From the NCBI GenBank assembly GCA_938003855.1, contig CALKXD010000223.1, positions 1 to 57,514 on the forward strand: 57,514 bases of DNA, given 5' to 3'. Below, piece after piece: positions 38,791-48,574 of the stretch; position 1 is the first letter of the stretch; every line of letters starts with the position of its first letter. The notes under the pieces were generated by a model. The model had not been told where the DNA came from. It did not search any database and saw only the letters and a program-made list of their open reading frames with translations. The DNA comes from an uncultured Granulosicoccaceae bacterium (lineage in GTDB: Bacteria; Pseudomonadota; Gammaproteobacteria; Granulosicoccales; Granulosicoccaceae). The translations under genes were made by a program, and so were the position numbers.

Positions 38791-38878
38791 GGGCTTATGC
38801 TATGGAGCAAGTTTTCTTTATTTATACACCAGAGAACTATGATTTGTCCATGCGACTGATTCGGTGGATGCTGTGACG

Positions 38879-40432
38879 ATGTCTACTGCCAACCAGACAG
38901 CCTCAAAATCACCGCCAGCCGCCAGAAAAAGGCGACGTGGCAAAAACATCAGACCCGTTGCAACGGCCAACACCCGCGTCAGCGGTGGTCGATACGCCCC
39001 GCTGACGCCTGATCAACAGCAGCGTATTCACCAGGCCGCACTGTCCATTCTCGATACTATCGGGATCGCCGAGATGCCTGACTACGCGATCAAAACCGTG
39101 TTGGACAATGGCGGCAGGCTGTGTGCGGGCAAGCGCGTGTGCTTCCCGCGCGAGCTGGTCGAGCGCGCCCTCGGCGGTGTAAAAAAGGACATCGTGCTGC
39201 ATGGTCGAAAGCCCGGACAAGCGTTAACGCTGGGCGGCAAAAATGTCTACACCGGTACCGGTGGGGCTGCTCCGCTTATGATTGATCTCGACACTGGCGA
39301 GTACCGCGACTCCACTCTGCTCGACCTCTACAACGCAGCGCGCCTGGTGGACACATTAGACAACGTGCATTTTTTCAGCCGATCGATGGTCGCCCGGGAT
39401 ATGCCGGATGCGCTTTCTCTGGATGTTAATACCGCCTATGCCTGTCTGGCCGGCACCAGCAAGCACATTTTAACCAGCGTCTCTACTGGCGCAAACGTTC
39501 AGGCCGTCAGCGATATCTGCTTTACCCTGGCAGGGTCTGAACAGGCGTTTCTGGAGGCGCCGTTTTTATCGCTTAATATTAATCACGTGGTATCTCCATT
39601 GCGTTTTTCTGCAGAAGCCTGCGATGTGCTGACTGCCGCAGCACGCATTGGCATACCGGTGCACGTCAATACGTTTGCGCAACTCGGTGCCTCCAGTCCG
39701 GTGACTATCGCCGGCTGCCTTGCACAGACCATGGCCGAATCATTGGCGGGGCTGATCTATGCATGGCTGGTTAACCCGTCAGCGTCTGTGATCTTCGGCC
39801 CGCGTCCGATGGTGACCGATCTTCGTACCGGTGCGGTGGCGGGTGGGTCGGGAGAGCAGGCGCTGCTGACTGCGGCGGCGGCGCAGATGTCGCAGTTCTA
39901 TGGTCTGCCTGATTCAACCATCGCCGGTGCCAGTGACAGCAAAATTGCCGACGCACAAAGCGGCTACGAAAAATGTCTGTCGGTAAGTCTTGCCGCTCAG
40001 ACCGGCTGCAATCTGATCACTCAGGCCTGTGGTATGCAGGCGGGTCTGATGGCATGTTCGTTCGAAAGCTATGTTATAGACAATGACATGCTGGGCGCTA
40101 TTTTACGGTCGATGAGCAAGATCGACGTGTCAGATACCACGCTGGATGTCGACACGGTCCGCAACGTCGTCAATGGCGACGGTCACTATCTGGGTCAGTC
40201 AGAAACCCTCAAGCGCATGCAAACTGATTTTTTATACCCGGATATTGCGGACCGACGCGATCACGCCGCCTGGGCCACCGGTGGGTCACCGGACAGTCGC
40301 AGTGTGGCCAATGCCCGCGCGCGACAAATACTGCAACAGCACTACCCGAAGCACATCAGCGATGCGCTGGATACAGTGCTGCGTGCAGAGCACCGGATTC
40401 TTCTGCCGCGCGATAAAATGACCGGGCCATGA
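38879..40432 (+). CDS. Trimethylamine methyltransferase (MttB) family protein, non-pyrrolysine
   Basis: A TIM-barrel methyltransferase (517 aa from this start). Family features include LTPDQQQRIHQAALSILDTIGI, GTGGAAPLMIDLDTGEYRDST, and the C-terminal ARARQILQQHYPKHISDALDTVL. The frame is uninterrupted, with no in-frame TAG, so it lacks pyrrolysine, as in the glycine-betaine methyltransferase (MtgB) branch. Known members pass the methyl to a corrinoid protein; none is encoded in this window. The N-terminus is Lys/Arg-rich. The first possible start is GTG at 38864; ATG at 38879 is chosen as the likelier. Its stop overlaps the next gene by 4 bp. Confidence 0.88.
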   Translation: MSTANQTASKSPPAARKRRRGKNIRPVATANTRVSGGRYAPLTPDQQQRIHQAALSILDTIGIAEMPDYAIKTVLDNGGRLCAGKRVCFPRELVERALGGVKKDIVLHGRKPGQALTLGGKNVYTGTGGAAPLMIDLDTGEYRDSTLLDLYNAARLVDTLDNVHFFSRSMVARDMPDALSLDVNTAYACLAGTSKHILTSVSTGANVQAVSDICFTLAGSEQAFLEAPFLSLNINHVVSPLRFSAEACDVLTAAARIGIPVHVNTFAQLGASSPVTIAGCLAQTMAESLAGLIYAWLVNPSASVIFGPRPMVTDLRTGAVAGGSGEQALLTAAAAQMSQFYGLPDSTIAGASDSKIADAQSGYEKCLSVSLAAQTGCNLITQACGMQAGLMACSFESYVIDNDMLGAILRSMSKIDVSDTTLDVDTVRNVVNGDGHYLGQSETLKRMQTDFLYPDIADRRDHAAWATGGSPDSRSVANARARQILQQHYPKHISDALDTVLRAEHRILLPRDKMTGP

Positions 40433-41121
40433 ATACCCCGATGAACATCGTTGCTGTTGGTGGCGGAGGTTTTACCCACAATCAGGATCCGCAACTCGAA
40501 GACTATCTACTTGCGATGTGTTGTTCGGACCGCCCTAAGATTGGCTTTATCGCAACCGCAAGTGAAGACAACCCGGATAAAATTAAACACTTCTATCATC
40601 GCTTTAGCACCGCAGCCTATAAAACGAGCCACCTTGAACTGGCGGGCGATAGCGGTGATACTGCCAACTGGGTGCTGTCTCAGGATATCATTTACGTGGG
40701 CGGAGGAAACACCGGAAACATGCTGTCTCGCTGGCAACAACACGGGTTAGCCAATGCCTTGTTACAGGCCGGGCACCGTGGCGTAATTCTGTCTGGTGTC
40801 AGTGCTGGTGCGGTATGCTGGTTTGACTATGCCCTGTCTGACAGCGCCGGCAATGGCCTGAAGCCACTCGATGCTTTAGGCTTTGTTAAAGGCAGCTGTT
40901 GCCCGCATTACTCTACCGAGCTTCACCGGCAACCGGCCTTCGAAGATCTTGTCTCTTCCGGCGAGATGCCGCAGGGCATCGCCATAGATGATGGCGTTGC
41001 TGTTCACCTGTGTGATGGTCACCCTGTAAAAATTGTATCAGCAAGGACTGGCGCTAAAGCCTATCGGGTCAGTGCTGATTCCGGGGGCGCAAAAACAACG
41101 GTACTGCAGGACCTTGTCTGA
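40429..41121 (+). CDS. Peptidase E-like (S51) protein
   Basis: A 230-aa cytoplasmic protein with a class I glutamine-amidotransferase-like fold. The nucleophile elbow is SGVSAGAVCWFD, the strand before it is DIIYVGGGNTGNMLSRW, and a C-terminal IAIDDGVAVHL supplies the remaining conserved region. The family contains Asp-dipeptidase PepE and cyanophycinase-like enzymes. It is translationally coupled (ATGA) to the MttB gene, so it may release an amino acid or cleave an acyl-peptide form of the methylated substrate (inference). Confidence 0.85.
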   Translation: MNTPMNIVAVGGGGFTHNQDPQLEDYLLAMCCSDRPKIGFIATASEDNPDKIKHFYHRFSTAAYKTSHLELAGDSGDTANWVLSQDIIYVGGGNTGNMLSRWQQHGLANALLQAGHRGVILSGVSAGAVCWFDYALSDSAGNGLKPLDALGFVKGSCCPHYSTELHRQPAFEDLVSSGEMPQGIAIDDGVAVHLCDGHPVKIVSARTGAKAYRVSADSGGAKTTVLQDLV

Positions 41122-41205
41122 CTCAGTGCAACCTTCAGTGCATGGCATCTCCAAATCAACTGCCGGTTGGTACCGGTATTCTACGAAGACACAGGAGGAA
41201 ACAAA

Positions 41206-42144
41206 ATGAAGAGAATATTCTCTGGAATAGCAGGCTTGTTGCTGCTACCGGCGCTGGCGTTGGCCGATAGCTACCCCGGGAAAAATGTCGTTTATCAGAT
41301 CACTTTCAATCCCGGTGGAGGATCAGACATACGGGCAAGGCAACAACAACCTGCGCTCGAGGCTGATCTTGGTGTCAAAGTTCCAATTCAGTACAAACCC
41401 GGTGGTGGCGGGTCACTTGGCTGGGCCGAGCTGGTAAAGAAAAAACCCGATGGTTATTTTATGTCCGGTATCAATATACCGCATATCATATTACAGCCGC
41501 TGGCACGCGATAACGCCGGCTATAAAACAGAGCAGATTGAACCCGTCATTCTATTCCAGCAGATTCCGTTCGGAATTTCAGTTTTGGCAGACTCACCGTT
41601 TAAAACACTGGACGAATTGATCGCCTATGCAAAGGAGAACCCCGGTGCGGTTACCATCGGCGGGTCCGGCACCTGGGATGCTACTCACATCGCTCACCTG
41701 CAGTTTGAGCAAATGGCTGGCGTTAAATTCACCTACGTACCTCATAAGGGCGGCAAACCAAAGCAAACCGCATTGCTTGGCGGCCACACGATGGCAAGCT
41801 GGTTTGGTGTCAGTGAATGGCTTCCCTACGGTGACAAAGTCCGCAATCTGGCGGTAGCAACCAGCGAGCCTGTAGAAACCAATCCTGATCTGCCAACTTT
41901 TAAATCGCTGGGTTACGATTTGTACTCGTCGGTGTATCACGGTGTTGGTGTCCCGGCAGGCACGCCTGACGATGTAGTTATGCGTCTGCAGGAGTCATTT
42001 ACAAAAATTGCCAATGACCCGGAAGTCCGTGCACGTAAGCTCAAGGACGGAATACTTCCTATTGCGATGAGTGGTGCCGAAGCAAAAAGCCTGATCGCAC
42101 AGCGCAAAGAAGTATGGGCGCCGATCGTCGAGGAATTTAAATAA
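41206..42144 (+). CDS. Tripartite tricarboxylate transporter substrate-binding protein (TctC family)
   Basis: A periplasmic binding protein (312 aa) with signal peptide MKRIFSGIAGLLLLPALALA. It shows the TctC/Bug features YPGKNVVYQITFNPGGGSDIRARQ, PGGGGSLGWAELVKKKPDGY and PGAVTIGGSGTWDATHIA. ATG 41206 has AGGAGGAA 6 nt upstream, clearly the true start. It is 84 bp after the S51 gene and 16 bp before the permease. TctC proteins bind carboxylates; the ligand here is unknown. Confidence 0.93.
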   Translation: MKRIFSGIAGLLLLPALALADSYPGKNVVYQITFNPGGGSDIRARQQQPALEADLGVKVPIQYKPGGGGSLGWAELVKKKPDGYFMSGINIPHIILQPLARDNAGYKTEQIEPVILFQQIPFGISVLADSPFKTLDELIAYAKENPGAVTIGGSGTWDATHIAHLQFEQMAGVKFTYVPHKGGKPKQTALLGGHTMASWFGVSEWLPYGDKVRNLAVATSEPVETNPDLPTFKSLGYDLYSSVYHGVGVPAGTPDDVVMRLQESFTKIANDPEVRARKLKDGILPIAMSGAEAKSLIAQRKEVWAPIVEEFK

Positions 42145-42160
42145 CAGGCGCTAATGCTCC

Positions 42161-44149
42161 ATGTTTGATGGCTTGATAACGGGCGCTGCTCATCTGGCAG
42201 TGCCCACCAACCTGATGTTTCTTTTTCTGGGCACAGCGCTGGGCATAGTGTTTGGCGCTATTCCGGGGTTGACGGCGACCATGGGACTAGCATTGCTGGT
42301 GCCGTTTACGTTCACTATGGAACCGGCTACCGGTCTGTTGATGCTGGCAGGTATCTACATCGGTGCAATGTATGGAGACGCTATTCCAGCCATTCTTATT
42401 AACACCCCCGGGACGCCGGCCGCCATTGCGACCACCTTCGATGGTTACCCGCTGTCACAGAAAGGCATGGCGCAGCATGCGCTGGTTGCAGCCGCATTTG
42501 CATCATGCTTCGGTGGGATCATCGCCAACATTATTCTAGCCACCGCCGCTGAACCTCTGGCAGAGATGTCGCTTAAGTTCGGACCGGCAGAGTATTTCTG
42601 GCTTGGCATATTCGGCCTGACGATTATATCGGTGCTGTCGAGTGGCAATCTGCTAAAAGGTTTTATCACCGCCACGGCCGGATTGCTGTTGTCCTCGGTC
42701 GGCATGGCATCATTGAGCGGTGAAGTCCGACTGACCTTCGGTTTCCCGGAACTCCAGGGAGGCATCGGTCTGGCCGGTGCGTTGATCGGTTTTTTCTGCC
42801 TGCCCGAAATATTATCCAATGTGATTGGCAAGCGCCGCGAAACCTATTCCGGGAAGCAAGTGCAGCCGTCCATGAAGGTAATCGTCGAAACCACGCTGGA
42901 TCTGCTCAAGCGGCCGGTGCTGATGATTCGGTCATCATTGATTGGCCTGGTGGTCGGTGTCGCACCGGGGGCCGGAGGCAATATTGCCAGTATGGTCTCC
43001 TACAGCGAGGCCACCCGGTGGGAGAAAAGACCGGAAGAATTCGGTACAGGGACAACGCGCGGTGTTGCGGCCTCCGAAGCGGCAAACAGTGCTATGGCAC
43101 CGGGGTCACTGATACCGCTGCTGACACTCGGCATACCGGGTTCGCCGCCCGCAGCTGTCATCCTCGGCGCACTGATGCTGCACGGCATGCAGCCGGGCAA
43201 TGATTTGTTTGCCGTGTACGCAGATGTGACCTATGCGTTTATCACCGGTCTGGCAGTGGCATCTATTGCAGTATTAATTCTGGGTACAGCAGGTTCATTC
43301 ATCTACGCCAGAATCATCAACGTACCGTCCCGCACCTTAGCGCCATTGATTCTGGTCATGACGGTGCTGGGCTCCTACGCCATCCGCAATAATCTGCTGG
43401 ATGTCTGGGTAATGTTGATATTCGGCATCATCGGATTGATCCTTATCCGTTTGCGATATCAGCCGGCGCCGCTGGTTCTGGGCATTATATTAGGCCCCTA
43501 TATTGAAAACGGCCTGATTCAGTCGATGATGATCGGCGGCGCCTCTGGCAGCGTGTTGTCTTACATGACACTGAGGCCCATCAGTCTGTTTCTGATCGGT
43601 CTTTGCGTACTGTCTGCTGCATGGCCACTGTTTGCTGCGTTCAAACGATCCAGGTCAACTCCCGCCGCTGACAAGGAACCAGGCAAAGAATCCGGTGCCC
43701 GCCTGATCAACAGTGATCTCATTATGGGCGTTGTAGCATTGGTGATCGCGGCGATTGTACTTGTCTCGACACGCGATCTGAGCCGATACGGCGGTGTTTT
43801 TGTCTACAGCTGTGCAGCGGTACTGACCGTGCTGGGTATTGTCACTTTGGTAAAAGGCTTCGTCAATGGCGACAAAGTCCCGTTCTTTGAGTCGGCCATC
43901 GAAAAAAAACGCATCAGCAGTGGCCTGGTGTTGCTGGCGCTATTTTTGGTCGCGGTGCCGTTGACAGGCTTTTTAACGGCAAGTTTTATATTCTATATTC
44001 TGATGAGTCTGTCATTGCGTGAAGGTTCACCCGGATTGAAGGTGGCGATAACACTGTTGACACAGGCCGCCGTGGTGACCGGCGCATTGTACTGGCTGTT
44101 TTATTCTGTATTGCAAGTGCCTCTACCCGGGCCCGTCTGGCTAAACTGA
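42161..44149 (+). CDS. TctA-TctB fusion permease of the tripartite tricarboxylate transporter
   Basis: A 662-aa inner-membrane protein. Residues 1 to about 500 are TctA (IPGLTATMGLALLVPFTF, NTPGTPAAIATTFDGYPL, GVAPGAGGNIASMVSY, LGIPGSPPAAVILGALMLHG). About residues 520-660 form the small four-helix TctB unit (DLIMGVVALVIAAIVL...VPLTGFLTASFIFYILM). Normally these are two genes; here they are one frame joined by a polar linker rich in Lys/Glu. With TctC it completes a secondary importer. Confidence 0.92.
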   Translation: MFDGLITGAAHLAVPTNLMFLFLGTALGIVFGAIPGLTATMGLALLVPFTFTMEPATGLLMLAGIYIGAMYGDAIPAILINTPGTPAAIATTFDGYPLSQKGMAQHALVAAAFASCFGGIIANIILATAAEPLAEMSLKFGPAEYFWLGIFGLTIISVLSSGNLLKGFITATAGLLLSSVGMASLSGEVRLTFGFPELQGGIGLAGALIGFFCLPEILSNVIGKRRETYSGKQVQPSMKVIVETTLDLLKRPVLMIRSSLIGLVVGVAPGAGGNIASMVSYSEATRWEKRPEEFGTGTTRGVAASEAANSAMAPGSLIPLLTLGIPGSPPAAVILGALMLHGMQPGNDLFAVYADVTYAFITGLAVASIAVLILGTAGSFIYARIINVPSRTLAPLILVMTVLGSYAIRNNLLDVWVMLIFGIIGLILIRLRYQPAPLVLGIILGPYIENGLIQSMMIGGASGSVLSYMTLRPISLFLIGLCVLSAAWPLFAAFKRSRSTPAADKEPGKESGARLINSDLIMGVVALVIAAIVLVSTRDLSRYGGVFVYSCAAVLTVLGIVTLVKGFVNGDKVPFFESAIEKKRISSGLVLLALFLVAVPLTGFLTASFIFYILMSLSLREGSPGLKVAITLLTQAAVVTGALYWLFYSVLQVPLPGPVWLN

Positions 44150-44963: not shown

Positions 44964-45487
44964 TGGTAGTCCGCTTCATCTGACTTTGCCTGATCATAAC
45001 AGCAACCCGATCATCACCGCGCGCAAATACCAACCCGCTGAAAGGCACCATACTGTGTACTGCCATAACCATTCTTTGGCAAACCTCAGTTACGTCAAGG
45101 TAATGCCTCTGGCAAATCTGCCGCCAGGCCTCCCTGCCCTTTGGCCGGTCGCCTTGCTCTTGATCGCAAGGGCAGTATATCCACCTTGCGCAGGCGTTTC
45201 AGTAATCGTCAATGCGGCATTACCGTTCTGTTGCATCGCACTAGCGTCAGAGCCATATAACCCGCGCTATTGTCGGGGTTTGTTGAACGCAACGGTGGAT
45301 TACGACGGAAAGTGATGCGGCTGATATACTATGTATTAGGCGGGTTAGGTATGATCAGCGTTCTTCTGCCTGGCGTCGCTTGTCCACACGGGTCAGTTGT
45401 CTGTCATTAAAGTGCCGGTCCGGGTTTCGCCACCGGACTGGCTACAGCACACGGTTCTGTGCAACTACGGTGAAGGTTAATTGTTTT
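44964..45487. other. 524-bp intergenic region
   Basis: It is shared upstream region of the racemase (minus) and the ABC-cNBD gene (plus). No gene is recognised. A stem GTCCGG / CCGGAC (45418-45438) lies 50 bp before the ABC-cNBD start. GAAGG about 11 nt before the ATG is a weak ribosome site. Confidence 0.4.
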
Positions 45488-48400
45488 ATGGAAAAAAGCC
45501 TTTTTAGATTTATATGGAAATACTCGAAAGTTGACCAACTGGTTCTGCTGGCGATCACGTGTCTGACATTCCCGATGCTGTTTATTTCACTGGAGCTGCC
45601 AAAACGCATCATTAACGATGCAATTGGTGGTTCAGGCGAAGATGTGACAGTACTGGGTATTACGCTGGCTCAGGTTCCTTTCCTGCTGATACTTTGCATC
45701 GCTTTCTTGTTGGTTGTCCTGCTTAGCGGTCTGCTTAAAATGCGTCTCAATACCATGAAGGGCGTGTTGGCTGAGCGATTGCTCCGGCGTTTCCGATACC
45801 AGCTGCTGACTCGTATTTCACGTTTTCCACGGCCTTACTTCAGAACCACCAGCCAGGGAGAATTGGTATCGATGGTCACCTCAGAGGCGGAGCCTATGGG
45901 GGGAATGATGGGCGACATGATCTCCCAGCCGATTTTACAGACCGGTCAAATGCTTACCATTCTTGGGTTTCTTTTTGCACAGAGCTTCTGGTTCGGTCTG
46001 GCATCTATCGCCTTGATCCCGTTTCAAGCCTGGATCATTCCAAGGCTTCAGCGGCAGATAAATGCTCTCAACAAAGCGAGGATTCAAGAAGTACGGATGC
46101 TGGCGTCCGATATCGGTGAGACCGCTGCAGCGGTCAGTGATATCCGCACCAACGGTGGCTTGCGGCACCGGATGTCGTTGTTTTCGATGCGACTGGGCAA
46201 TCTTTTCGGGATTCGCTTCCAGATTTATCAAAAGAAATTCTTCATGAAATTTCTAAACAACTTTCTCAATCAGCTGACACCGTTTTTTTTCTATGCGGTT
46301 GGCGGTTACCTGGTGATAAAAGGTGAGATAACCATTGGCGCACTGATCGCGGCTTTGGCGGCCTACAAAGACTTATCGTCACCGTGGAAGGAACTACTCG
46401 CCTATTATAATCAAACGCAGGATATGTCGCTGCGCTGGCAGGTGGTCACTGAGCGCTTTGCACCCAAACCACTGGTCAACGATGCGCTGTTCGACGGCGT
46501 ACCTGAATCTATTGCAAGCCTGGCCGGGCCTATCGAAATACAAAACGTCACGGTGCGCGATGAAGACGGTCAGCCGGTGCTGGAAGATATCAACCTCAGT
46601 ATTCCACAGGGCGCCCGTGTTGCGATTCAAACCAACAACGAAACCTCAGCACTGGCCTTTGCCGATCTGCTGACACGTGAAGTGATCCCGCTGCGGGGGA
46701 CGGTACAGATTGCCGGCCATAACCTCAACGACCTGCATCAGGCAGTGATCGCCAACCGGATCGGGTATGCGCATTCAAAACCACATCTGCTGAAAGGCAC
46801 GCTGGGAGACAACCTGCTGATGCCATTCAAACATGAACCCGCAGGCAGCTCACAGCCCACCGGCGAGCTAACTTCTCTACAGACAGAATCTGCCCGTGCC
46901 GGTAATACAGTTGACCCGTTCGACGTCGACTGGGAAGCACCCGGTGCAATAGACTTCAGATCCCCCGACGATATTCGTGAATGGTGGTATCAGCTTATCG
47001 AAGCCATGGGGATTGACGACTTCATGGTACGCCGGGCGCTGCGCTCGCGCTTAGTGCCGGGTGCTCAGCCAGAGTTTGAGGCCACCATTGTTAGCCTGCG
47101 TGACGAGGTCGCGGACCGACTGGCGCAAGCCGGTATGGGGGATATTGTTTATGAGTATCATCCGCAGAAATTTAATTCGGCCTCACCGCTGGGCAGCAAT
47201 TTACTGTATGCGCTGCCAACCCGCATGTTAACGCAGGAATCCTTATCGAAAGAACCGTACTTTTTGCGGATGCTGCGCAATGCCGGTATCGAAGAAGAAA
47301 TAGCACTGATGTCTGTCAGCCTGATTGACGGGCTGACTGCCACGTTCGGCAATGACGGTACGGACCATCCTCTGTTTCGGCGGCTGGGTATCGATGACAC
47401 TCTGTACCAGCGACTCGGCAGTATCTCTTCGAAAAGACGCGAGGTTGGTGATGCGGGCTTGTCCTCTGAAGAATTTGCGCTGCTGATCACGGTGCCGTTT
47501 GCGTTCTCCGCAGAGCAGATGGGCCCCGTTTTCAGCGAAGATTTCAAGCAGCGTATACTGCAGATTCGCATGAGCAGCGCCACGCAAATGGTCGGGGAAA
47601 TGGACGGTCTTTTTGAAACCATCGACCGCCAGCGCTATATTCCGGTGATGACGGTGCTGGGTAATTTACTGTTTGGCCGGATATCCCGAATGGCGGGCGC
47701 CCGCGAAAGAGAGATCGAAGACATACTCGTCGAGGTCCTGACTGCACACGGGTTAAGACGCCTGGCAGCGCAATCAATCTACGATCTGGAAACAACACCG
47801 GGAGGCGATAACCTGCCCGCGGTCTTCCGCGAGCGCGTCGCCTTCAGCCGCGCCGGTATCAAGAAGCCCGACATCCTGATACTGGGCAATGCGCTGGCAA
47901 GCCACGATGACACAGCACGGGAGTTAACCCGTGAACGAATCAGTAAACTGATGCCGGACTCGACCAAAATATTTATAGAAAAGCAGTTCCTTAATCCCGA
48001 CGCCTATGATCTGTTTGTTGAACTGAGCGACGGCAGAATCAAAGGCGACACCGCCCCGGCCGACCCGCAGGATGCTGATGCCCGGCAGGATCTAAACAAC
48101 AAAGTACAAGCGGTGGCACAAGCCGAACTGTTTGCCAATCTCGATCTGCGACAACAGCGACTGCTGGCGTTCAGTAGTCAGTGGTTCAGCGTTAAAGCCG
48201 GACAGGTGATCTATCAGGCCGGGCAGAAAGCTGATGCGGCCTATTTGTGCGTAAAGGGGCTGTCGGGTTTGTACTGGACGGACGACAGTCGCAAAAAGCG
48301 TTTAATCACAGAAGTGGCCCCGGGACGACTGATCGGCGACTTATCAGTCATTATCAAAGAGCGTCGGCAGGTCGATCTGGTTGCTATCGAAGATACCCTG

Positions 48401-48574
48401 TTTCTCCGAATTGGCGCGACCGAACTCATGGCGGTGATCGAAAACGACGCAATGGTGGCAAGCAGTCTGCTGCGAACCGTCTCCGGTCATTTAACCAACG
48501 TGGTGGACAACATTCGCAATGTGCGCAATTTTGCCATCGAGCGCGGCGTCGATTTTTCAGAGTTCGACAACTAA
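45488..48574 (+). CDS. ABC-exporter-like protein with degenerate ATPase and C-terminal cyclic-nucleotide-binding-like domain
   Basis: A 1028-aa protein. Residues 1 to about 330 resemble the membrane domain of type IV ABC exporters (about six helices; FRYQLLTRISRFPRPYF, GELVSMVTSEAE). From about 345 an NBD begins (IEIQNVTVRDEDGQPVLEDINLSI), but the Walker A place (about 377-390) reads AIQTNNETSALAF with no GK[ST]. The Q-loop place reads YAHSKPHLLKG. The signature place reads LPAVFRERVAFSRA, and the Walker B place reads DILILGNALASHD with no catalytic Glu. About 300 residues are inserted between Q-loop and signature. Residues about 880-1028 look like a Crp-type cNMP domain. ATP hydrolysis is improbable; a sensor or scaffold role is inferred. 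Convergent MFS gene downstream. Confidence 0.85.
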   Translation: MEKSLFRFIWKYSKVDQLVLLAITCLTFPMLFISLELPKRIINDAIGGSGEDVTVLGITLAQVPFLLILCIAFLLVVLLSGLLKMRLNTMKGVLAERLLRRFRYQLLTRISRFPRPYFRTTSQGELVSMVTSEAEPMGGMMGDMISQPILQTGQMLTILGFLFAQSFWFGLASIALIPFQAWIIPRLQRQINALNKARIQEVRMLASDIGETAAAVSDIRTNGGLRHRMSLFSMRLGNLFGIRFQIYQKKFFMKFLNNFLNQLTPFFFYAVGGYLVIKGEITIGALIAALAAYKDLSSPWKELLAYYNQTQDMSLRWQVVTERFAPKPLVNDALFDGVPESIASLAGPIEIQNVTVRDEDGQPVLEDINLSIPQGARVAIQTNNETSALAFADLLTREVIPLRGTVQIAGHNLNDLHQAVIANRIGYAHSKPHLLKGTLGDNLLMPFKHEPAGSSQPTGELTSLQTESARAGNTVDPFDVDWEAPGAIDFRSPDDIREWWYQLIEAMGIDDFMVRRALRSRLVPGAQPEFEATIVSLRDEVADRLAQAGMGDIVYEYHPQKFNSASPLGSNLLYALPTRMLTQESLSKEPYFLRMLRNAGIEEEIALMSVSLIDGLTATFGNDGTDHPLFRRLGIDDTLYQRLGSISSKRREVGDAGLSSEEFALLITVPFAFSAEQMGPVFSEDFKQRILQIRMSSATQMVGEMDGLFETIDRQRYIPVMTVLGNLLFGRISRMAGAREREIEDILVEVLTAHGLRRLAAQSIYDLETTPGGDNLPAVFRERVAFSRAGIKKPDILILGNALASHDDTARELTRERISKLMPDSTKIFIEKQFLNPDAYDLFVELSDGRIKGDTAPADPQDADARQDLNNKVQAVAQAELFANLDLRQQRLLAFSSQWFSVKAGQVIYQAGQKADAAYLCVKGLSGLYWTDDSRKKRLITEVAPGRLIGDLSVIIKERRQVDLVAIEDTLFLRIGATELMAVIENDAMVASSLLRTVSGHLTNVVDNIRNVRNFAIERGVDFSEFDN

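Follow-up and report, generated by a model that had tools for sequence, protein, structure and literature searches.

ABC exporters are generally viewed as machines driven by ATP, and the locus described here raises the question of what such a machine does once its ATPase motifs have been lost. The window, a 57,514-nucleotide stretch of DNA from an uncultured Granulosicoccaceae bacterium, carries on its forward strand a 1028-aa ORF (45488..48574, +) that encodes a motif-dead ABC exporter homolog in which the helical subdomain is triplicated and the C terminus carries a cNMP-binding domain. The coordinates, strand, and 1028-codon length given for this ORF in the original prediction, which was made from the sequence alone, are correct. 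An in-frame TTG at 45380 provides an alternative start upstream of the ATG at 45488; we take the ATG as the start because homologs begin MEKSL.

Exporter fold and loss of the ATPase motifs

The transmembrane domain (TMD; aa 1-322, 45488..46453, +) contains six TM helices and is assigned from Pfam (ABC_membrane, aa 39-290, 2.2e-16), the AF2 model, and VIA-align. No other part of the protein is as strongly conserved: the TMD has the most invariant alignment columns, and the coupling-loop residues G124, E125, and E211 are almost or wholly invariant. The Pfam ABC_tran match is partial (21.7 bits against a cut-off of 25), and none of the 25 NCBIfam matches listed reaches its cut-off, the best being MsbA at 110.6 against 602 bits. 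A PDB sequence search aligns type IV exporters to aa 71-445 and 764-851, flanking an insertion, and the Pfam matches include no peptidase family such as C39. The full AF2 model, which is of a monomer only (pLDDT 81.6, pTM 0.67), aligns with type IV exporters over ~410-430 residues at a VIA-align Z of ~25 and an rmsd of 3.4-5 Å, and its NBD aligns with that of ComA over 227 of 239 residues at a Z of 24.4. These values bear out the ABC-exporter fold originally proposed. The top structural matches are heterodimeric exporters.

Alignment with canonical exporters and with homologs shows that all of the ATPase motifs named in the original prediction are replaced. In the N-terminal half of the NBD (aa 345-431, 46520..46780, +), which has lost Walker A and the Q-loop Gln, the Walker A position (aa 381-389, 46628-46654, +) reads VAIQTNNETSALAFADLL, without the G, K, or S/T pattern, and the Q-loop reads IGYAHSKP, with Q changed to H at aa 429. 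LPAVF replaces the LSGGQ signature at aa 776 (47813-47827, +). Further downstream (47873..48043, +), Walker B reads LILGN (47876-47890, +) and has lost both its Glu and its Asp, the latter a loss additional to those first described; the D-loop, ASHD, retains its Asp, and the switch region, IFIEKQF, has Glu in place of His.

These changes recur in an ortholog set of 95 distinct sequences from Granulosicoccaceae and roseobacters. Not one sequence of the set has the Walker A Lys or Gly pattern, the Walker B Glu, the switch His, or LSGGQ (0/95 for each), while the Walker B Asp is kept in 43/95 (roseobacter lineages) and the D-loop Asp in 79/95. The roseobacters fall into two subclades, with a sensor pocket of GDL or GEL type, and both are motif-dead. 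Motif loss is clade-wide and not an accident of one MAG; the motif losses, whose conservation had been left as a question, are shared by 95/95 sequences of the window clade and are graded in the wider family. Loss of catalytic motifs is also what would be expected of a decaying pseudogene or an assembly artifact, but this explanation is ruled out by the dN/dS values and the breadth of the orthologs. The frame is open in almost all of the some 95 orthologs that carry the losses, and in close species pairs dN/dS is far below 1 in all domains (~0.02-0.09 in most, the N-terminal NBD core included; maximum 0.19, in one pair). The gene is thus intact and under purifying selection rather than decaying, in agreement with the original view that it is not a pseudogene. 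Selection has preserved the scaffold while the ATP residues have drifted.

Additional helical subdomains and the sensor domain

The Q-loop (aa 429) and the signature (aa 776) are separated by ~350 residues, ~270 more than in ordinary exporters. Invariant columns form the pattern xENI(L)xFG ... (I)xxxR at three places in the protein, and profile-profile comparison with hhalign relates the three units to each other, with E-values of 4e-14 for units 2 and 3 (7.5e-10 in an earlier, narrower alignment), 3.7e-7 for units 1 and 2, and 1.1e-6 for units 1 and 3. As controls, 90 column shuffles gave a best E-value of 5e-3, and other segments of the protein gave 0.1 or worse. Copy 1 (aa 425-553, 46760..47146, +) contains the pair N442/R538, copy 2 (aa 554-708, 47147..47611, +) the pair N571/R694, and copy 3 (aa 709-795, 47612..47872, +) the pair N726/R788. 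All three Asn/Arg pairs are invariant in 95/95 sequences of the clade, and these residues are found in 47-49 of 49 sequences of the wider family. Copy 3 is the helical subdomain at its canonical place and includes the signature helix in its degenerate form. The ~270 additional residues, first reported as a large insertion, are thus two further tandem copies of the helical subdomain of this NBD, an element that ordinarily touches the coupling helices and the partner NBD. No description of such an architecture, or of a triplicated helical subdomain, was found in the literature searched, which was covered in part.

Modeling of the insert by itself is consistent with this assignment. The insert-only AF2 model (pLDDT 84) is matched by few solved chains, with a Z of 3.4 at best; ABC transporters account for 11 of the 14 chains listed as matching, and aa 559-703 align to the helical subdomains of BmrA (424-495), PCAT1 (569-640), and E. 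coli CydDC (422-492). It had been suggested that a structure might reveal an ATP site supplied by the insertion. We reject this possibility: there is no sign of such a site, Foldseek with the insert-only model returned nothing at E <= 0.001, and the weak resemblance to ABC helical subdomains is joined by no other confident match. Continued use of ATP through a non-canonical site is highly improbable. The D-loop Asp and, in the roseobacter lineages, the Walker B Asp that survive could be read in its favor, but the Walker A Lys and Gly pattern, the Walker B Glu, and the switch His are missing from every ortholog, and the insert offers no confident fold of its own.

The Crp-like sensor predicted at the C terminus is likewise present, as a cNMP-binding domain (aa 868-1000, 48089..48487, +) with a core of G950, D951, and R960 and a Pfam PF00027 match above cut-off (aa 901-987, 4.5e-13). 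In the phosphate-binding cassette, G950 and R960 are each conserved in 94/94 orthologs, and the residue after the pocket Gly is acidic in 94/94 (Asp in 65, Glu in 29). The domain may bind a nucleotide-type ligand, either cAMP or cGMP or, perhaps, ppGpp. The host genome contains 8 class III cyclase genes, so that a ligand may be available, and the ligand should not be taken to be cAMP because the corresponding domain of HetC binds ppGpp in vitro. The sensor is fused in some family members, as it is here, and in many others it is encoded by a separate adjacent gene of ~160 aa, so it probably works with the ABC part. The mixture of fused and separate sensors among paralogs reflects repeated fusion or fission. 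One locus in the host genome itself (L022:4016-7207, contig C238) and the loci L031, L036, and L037 have the ABC part and the cNMP domain as separate neighboring genes.

Relatives and genomic context

The closest sampled homologs come from the same family, Granulosicoccaceae, and are 61-72% identical. A scan of one genome per species detected related sequences at more than 550 places; the 80 best of these are 47-69% identical and come from Granulosicoccus and roseobacters, together with a few differently labeled MAGs. When the wider family was searched with a model of the insertion, matches were found in 31 of 398 sampled Pseudomonadota genomes, in 31 of 149 genomes from the family of G175 (a roseobacter-type genome), and in 28 of 48 genomes of the window's own family; no further genome of the window's own class matched in the 398-genome phylum sample. 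In a quick tree, whose outgroup placement is unsafe, the window clade is recovered as a single, well-supported group. The sequence relationships suggest gene transfer between Alpha- and Gammaproteobacteria. Some roseobacter sequences (L041, L122, and L114) are as near to the window protein as those of its own family. Ruegeria pomeroyi also has a homolog (L111).

Members outside the window clade differ in how much of the ATPase they have kept. L126, L128, and L137 retain Walker A (GxxDSGKS) and Walker B (LLVVDE) and are without LSGGQ or the Q-loop Gln. The original prediction had considered that homologs might carry canonical Walker motifs at shifted positions; near-canonical motifs do exist in these distant members, but they stand at the same alignment columns, and no canonical motif was found at a shifted position in the clade. 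Other members are intermediate, so that degeneration in the family forms a gradient with complete death only in the window clade. A distant subfamily (L143, L145, L147, L148, and L149; family code f83) shares the insertion, but its signature region is rearranged and the Walker B acids are absent. Relatives consisting of the TMD only, with no NBD and 297-437 aa long, occur in Granulosicoccaceae and on roseobacter plasmids (L154:14734-16044 on Phaeobacter inhibens pP80_b, L190:10288-11493, L188:9282-10307, L187:2332-3363, and L189:9314-10204), suggesting that the TMD may have an NBD-free role. The Phaeobacter gene sits among copper and cytochrome genes.

The number of family members per genome bears on the main mechanistic rival, in which the protein would pair, as a degenerate half, with another ABC subunit that supplies the working ATP site, and the heterodimer would continue to export at the expense of ATP, as in TmrAB, TAP, or TM287/288. 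In a composite ATP site, Walker A/B come from one half and the signature from its partner. The half described here offers neither Walker A/B nor a signature, so both composite sites would be broken. Many relatives do have at least two family members per genome, including a pair side by side at L032 in G005, and heterodimeric exporters are the best structural matches; degenerate halves are, moreover, common and useful (PMC7756269). Against this, the three other family members of the host genome are all degenerate, leaving no competent partner within the family, both roseobacter subclades are dead, and a member of this clade is the only family member detected in G014 (95% complete), G004 (93%), and G022 (91%), in a comparison in which several genomes are incomplete MAGs. 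Taken together, we consider a heterodimer with a live partner quite unlikely. Roseobacter-family genomes that carry the family mostly have two members, and the GDL-type and GEL-type members may work as a pair.

The window gene is surrounded by unrelated catabolic and transport genes and has no glycan neighbors. Upstream of it, positions 38864-44149 encode an MTTB-family methyltransferase, an S51 peptidase, and a TctC/TctA-like tripartite tricarboxylate transporter pair, in what looks like an ordinary catabolic block. Most close orthologs are also orphans without glycan neighbors, so that membership in a glycan operon is not obligate in the window clade. Three window-clade orthologs (L026, L040, and L152) adjoin glycan genes, and since the window gene and most orthologs are orphans, the link to glycans rests on these three and on paralogs. 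In Rhizobium, Sinorhizobium, Azospirillum, and several Granulosicoccaceae, relatives lie in clusters with glycosyltransferases and a polysaccharide deacetylase, accompanied by GNAT or methyltransferase genes, a nucleotide-sugar dehydrogenase, and an Opp-type importer; an adenylate cyclase is present in 8 of the strongly matching loci examined, from Rhizobium, Sinorhizobium, and others, some loci in this context comparison coming from a single genus.

The gene order of the S. meliloti 1021 cluster (pSymB 823-846 kb) agrees with SMb21252-SMb21271, and the cluster is probably the "PPP" locus, the SMb tags being assigned by gene order only. A Tn-seq study reports that nine genes in the SMb21252-SMb21271 interval are required for PPP, an uncharacterized surface polysaccharide that confers protection against phazolicin (PMC10128002), and a response to predation is seen for genes in this interval (PMC10315480). 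In S. meliloti 2011, the homolog lies beside the cNMP gene at ~841.5-845 kb of pSymB. Near codon 122, the homologous ABC gene of S. meliloti contains a run of C whose length varies (L196, pSymB ~842.1 kb). Comparison of L196 (strain 1021) with L218 (strain 2011), L213, L217, L151, and L214 gives 7 C in strains 2011, RMO17, and R14, with an open frame of 922 aa, 8 C in 1021 and AK57, and 6 C in ml59 (frame broken). The variation could be due to phase variation, to inactivation in individual strains, or to sequencing error.

The orphan position of the gene in most genomes would also suit a pure signaling receptor or scaffold, in which the TMD would detect a ligand in the envelope or hold partner enzymes in place, with their activity set by the cNMP domain and nothing passing through the protein. 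Every energizing residue is gone, and the NBD with its extra helical subdomains would give a binding surface. The conservation of the TMD and of G124, E125, and E211, however, also fits a moving, transporter-like core, and we regard this explanation as somewhat unlikely.

A proposed nucleotide-regulated module and its counterparts

The reading we prefer, with a probability of roughly 45%, is that this is a membrane module that works independently of ATP, is regulated by a nucleotide, and has a type IV ABC half-exporter as its ancestor. A module running from the sensor to the TMD is favored because the ATP half-sites are missing and the sensor pocket Gly and Arg are conserved in 94/94 orthologs; with both half-sites missing from the subunit, ABC mechanics imply that a homodimer could not run the ABC cycle. 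The TMD and the NBD scaffold have been retained from the half-exporter, the ATP sites have been lost, and the NBD scaffold has grown through triplication of its helical subdomain in tandem. A nucleotide-type ligand would bind the C-terminal cNMP domain. The three helical subdomains, together with the intact coupling loops, would relay the resulting conformational change to the TMD, and the TMD would gate or recruit something, most plausibly an inner-membrane glycan or glycolipid step. Ligand binding, the direction of control, the cargo or partner, and homodimerization are the parts of this scheme that we infer. A further proposal, which we put forward tentatively, is that in this family of exporter-derived membrane proteins a second-messenger sensor has replaced ATP control, the result being an ATP-independent channel, flippase, or recruiter that is gated by a cyclic nucleotide or ppGpp and built on an NBD with a triplicated subdomain.

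Here a conserved clade keeps a whole ABC machine under selection with neither ATP site, and the wider family displays intermediate stages of the loss in living species, down to proteins of the membrane part only. The family also places a candidate nucleotide-regulated membrane step in surface-polysaccharide clusters, one of them with S. meliloti phenotypes. The question of what an ABC fold is capable of in the absence of ATP is now directly testable in tractable rhizobia and roseobacters.

A comparison with known systems shows both shared features and significant differences. The six-helix TMD, coupling loops, and NBD core are shared with type IV ABC exporters such as MsbA, BmrA, TmrAB, TM287/288, PCAT1, and ComA. 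Unlike these, the window protein is without Walker A, the Q-loop Gln, LSGGQ, the Walker B acids, and the switch His, and adds two helical subdomains and a C-terminal cNMP domain. In CFTR and SUR, an ABC scaffold has been turned into a channel or regulator. Degenerate-site exporters of the TAP, MRP, CFTR, and SUR types have likewise lost catalytic residues while retaining function (PMC7756269), but each of them retains one or more sites that are competent or bind nucleotide, whereas the window subunit keeps no site residue. HetC of Nostoc, a peptidase ABC exporter, is similar in being an ABC exporter fused to a cNMP-type domain, which is required in vivo and binds ppGpp in vitro (PMC10986499). 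In HetC, however, the cNMP domain is N-terminal and accompanied by a C39 peptidase, and the ATPase is needed, whereas the window protein has a C-terminal sensor and a dead ATPase. The rhizobial relatives, including that of the probable S. meliloti PPP locus, have the same TMD, NBD, and triplicated helical subdomain, and their next gene encodes a cNMP protein; they differ in having ~27-28% identity to the window protein, an unfused sensor, a partly degenerate NBD, and a place in an operon-like cluster.
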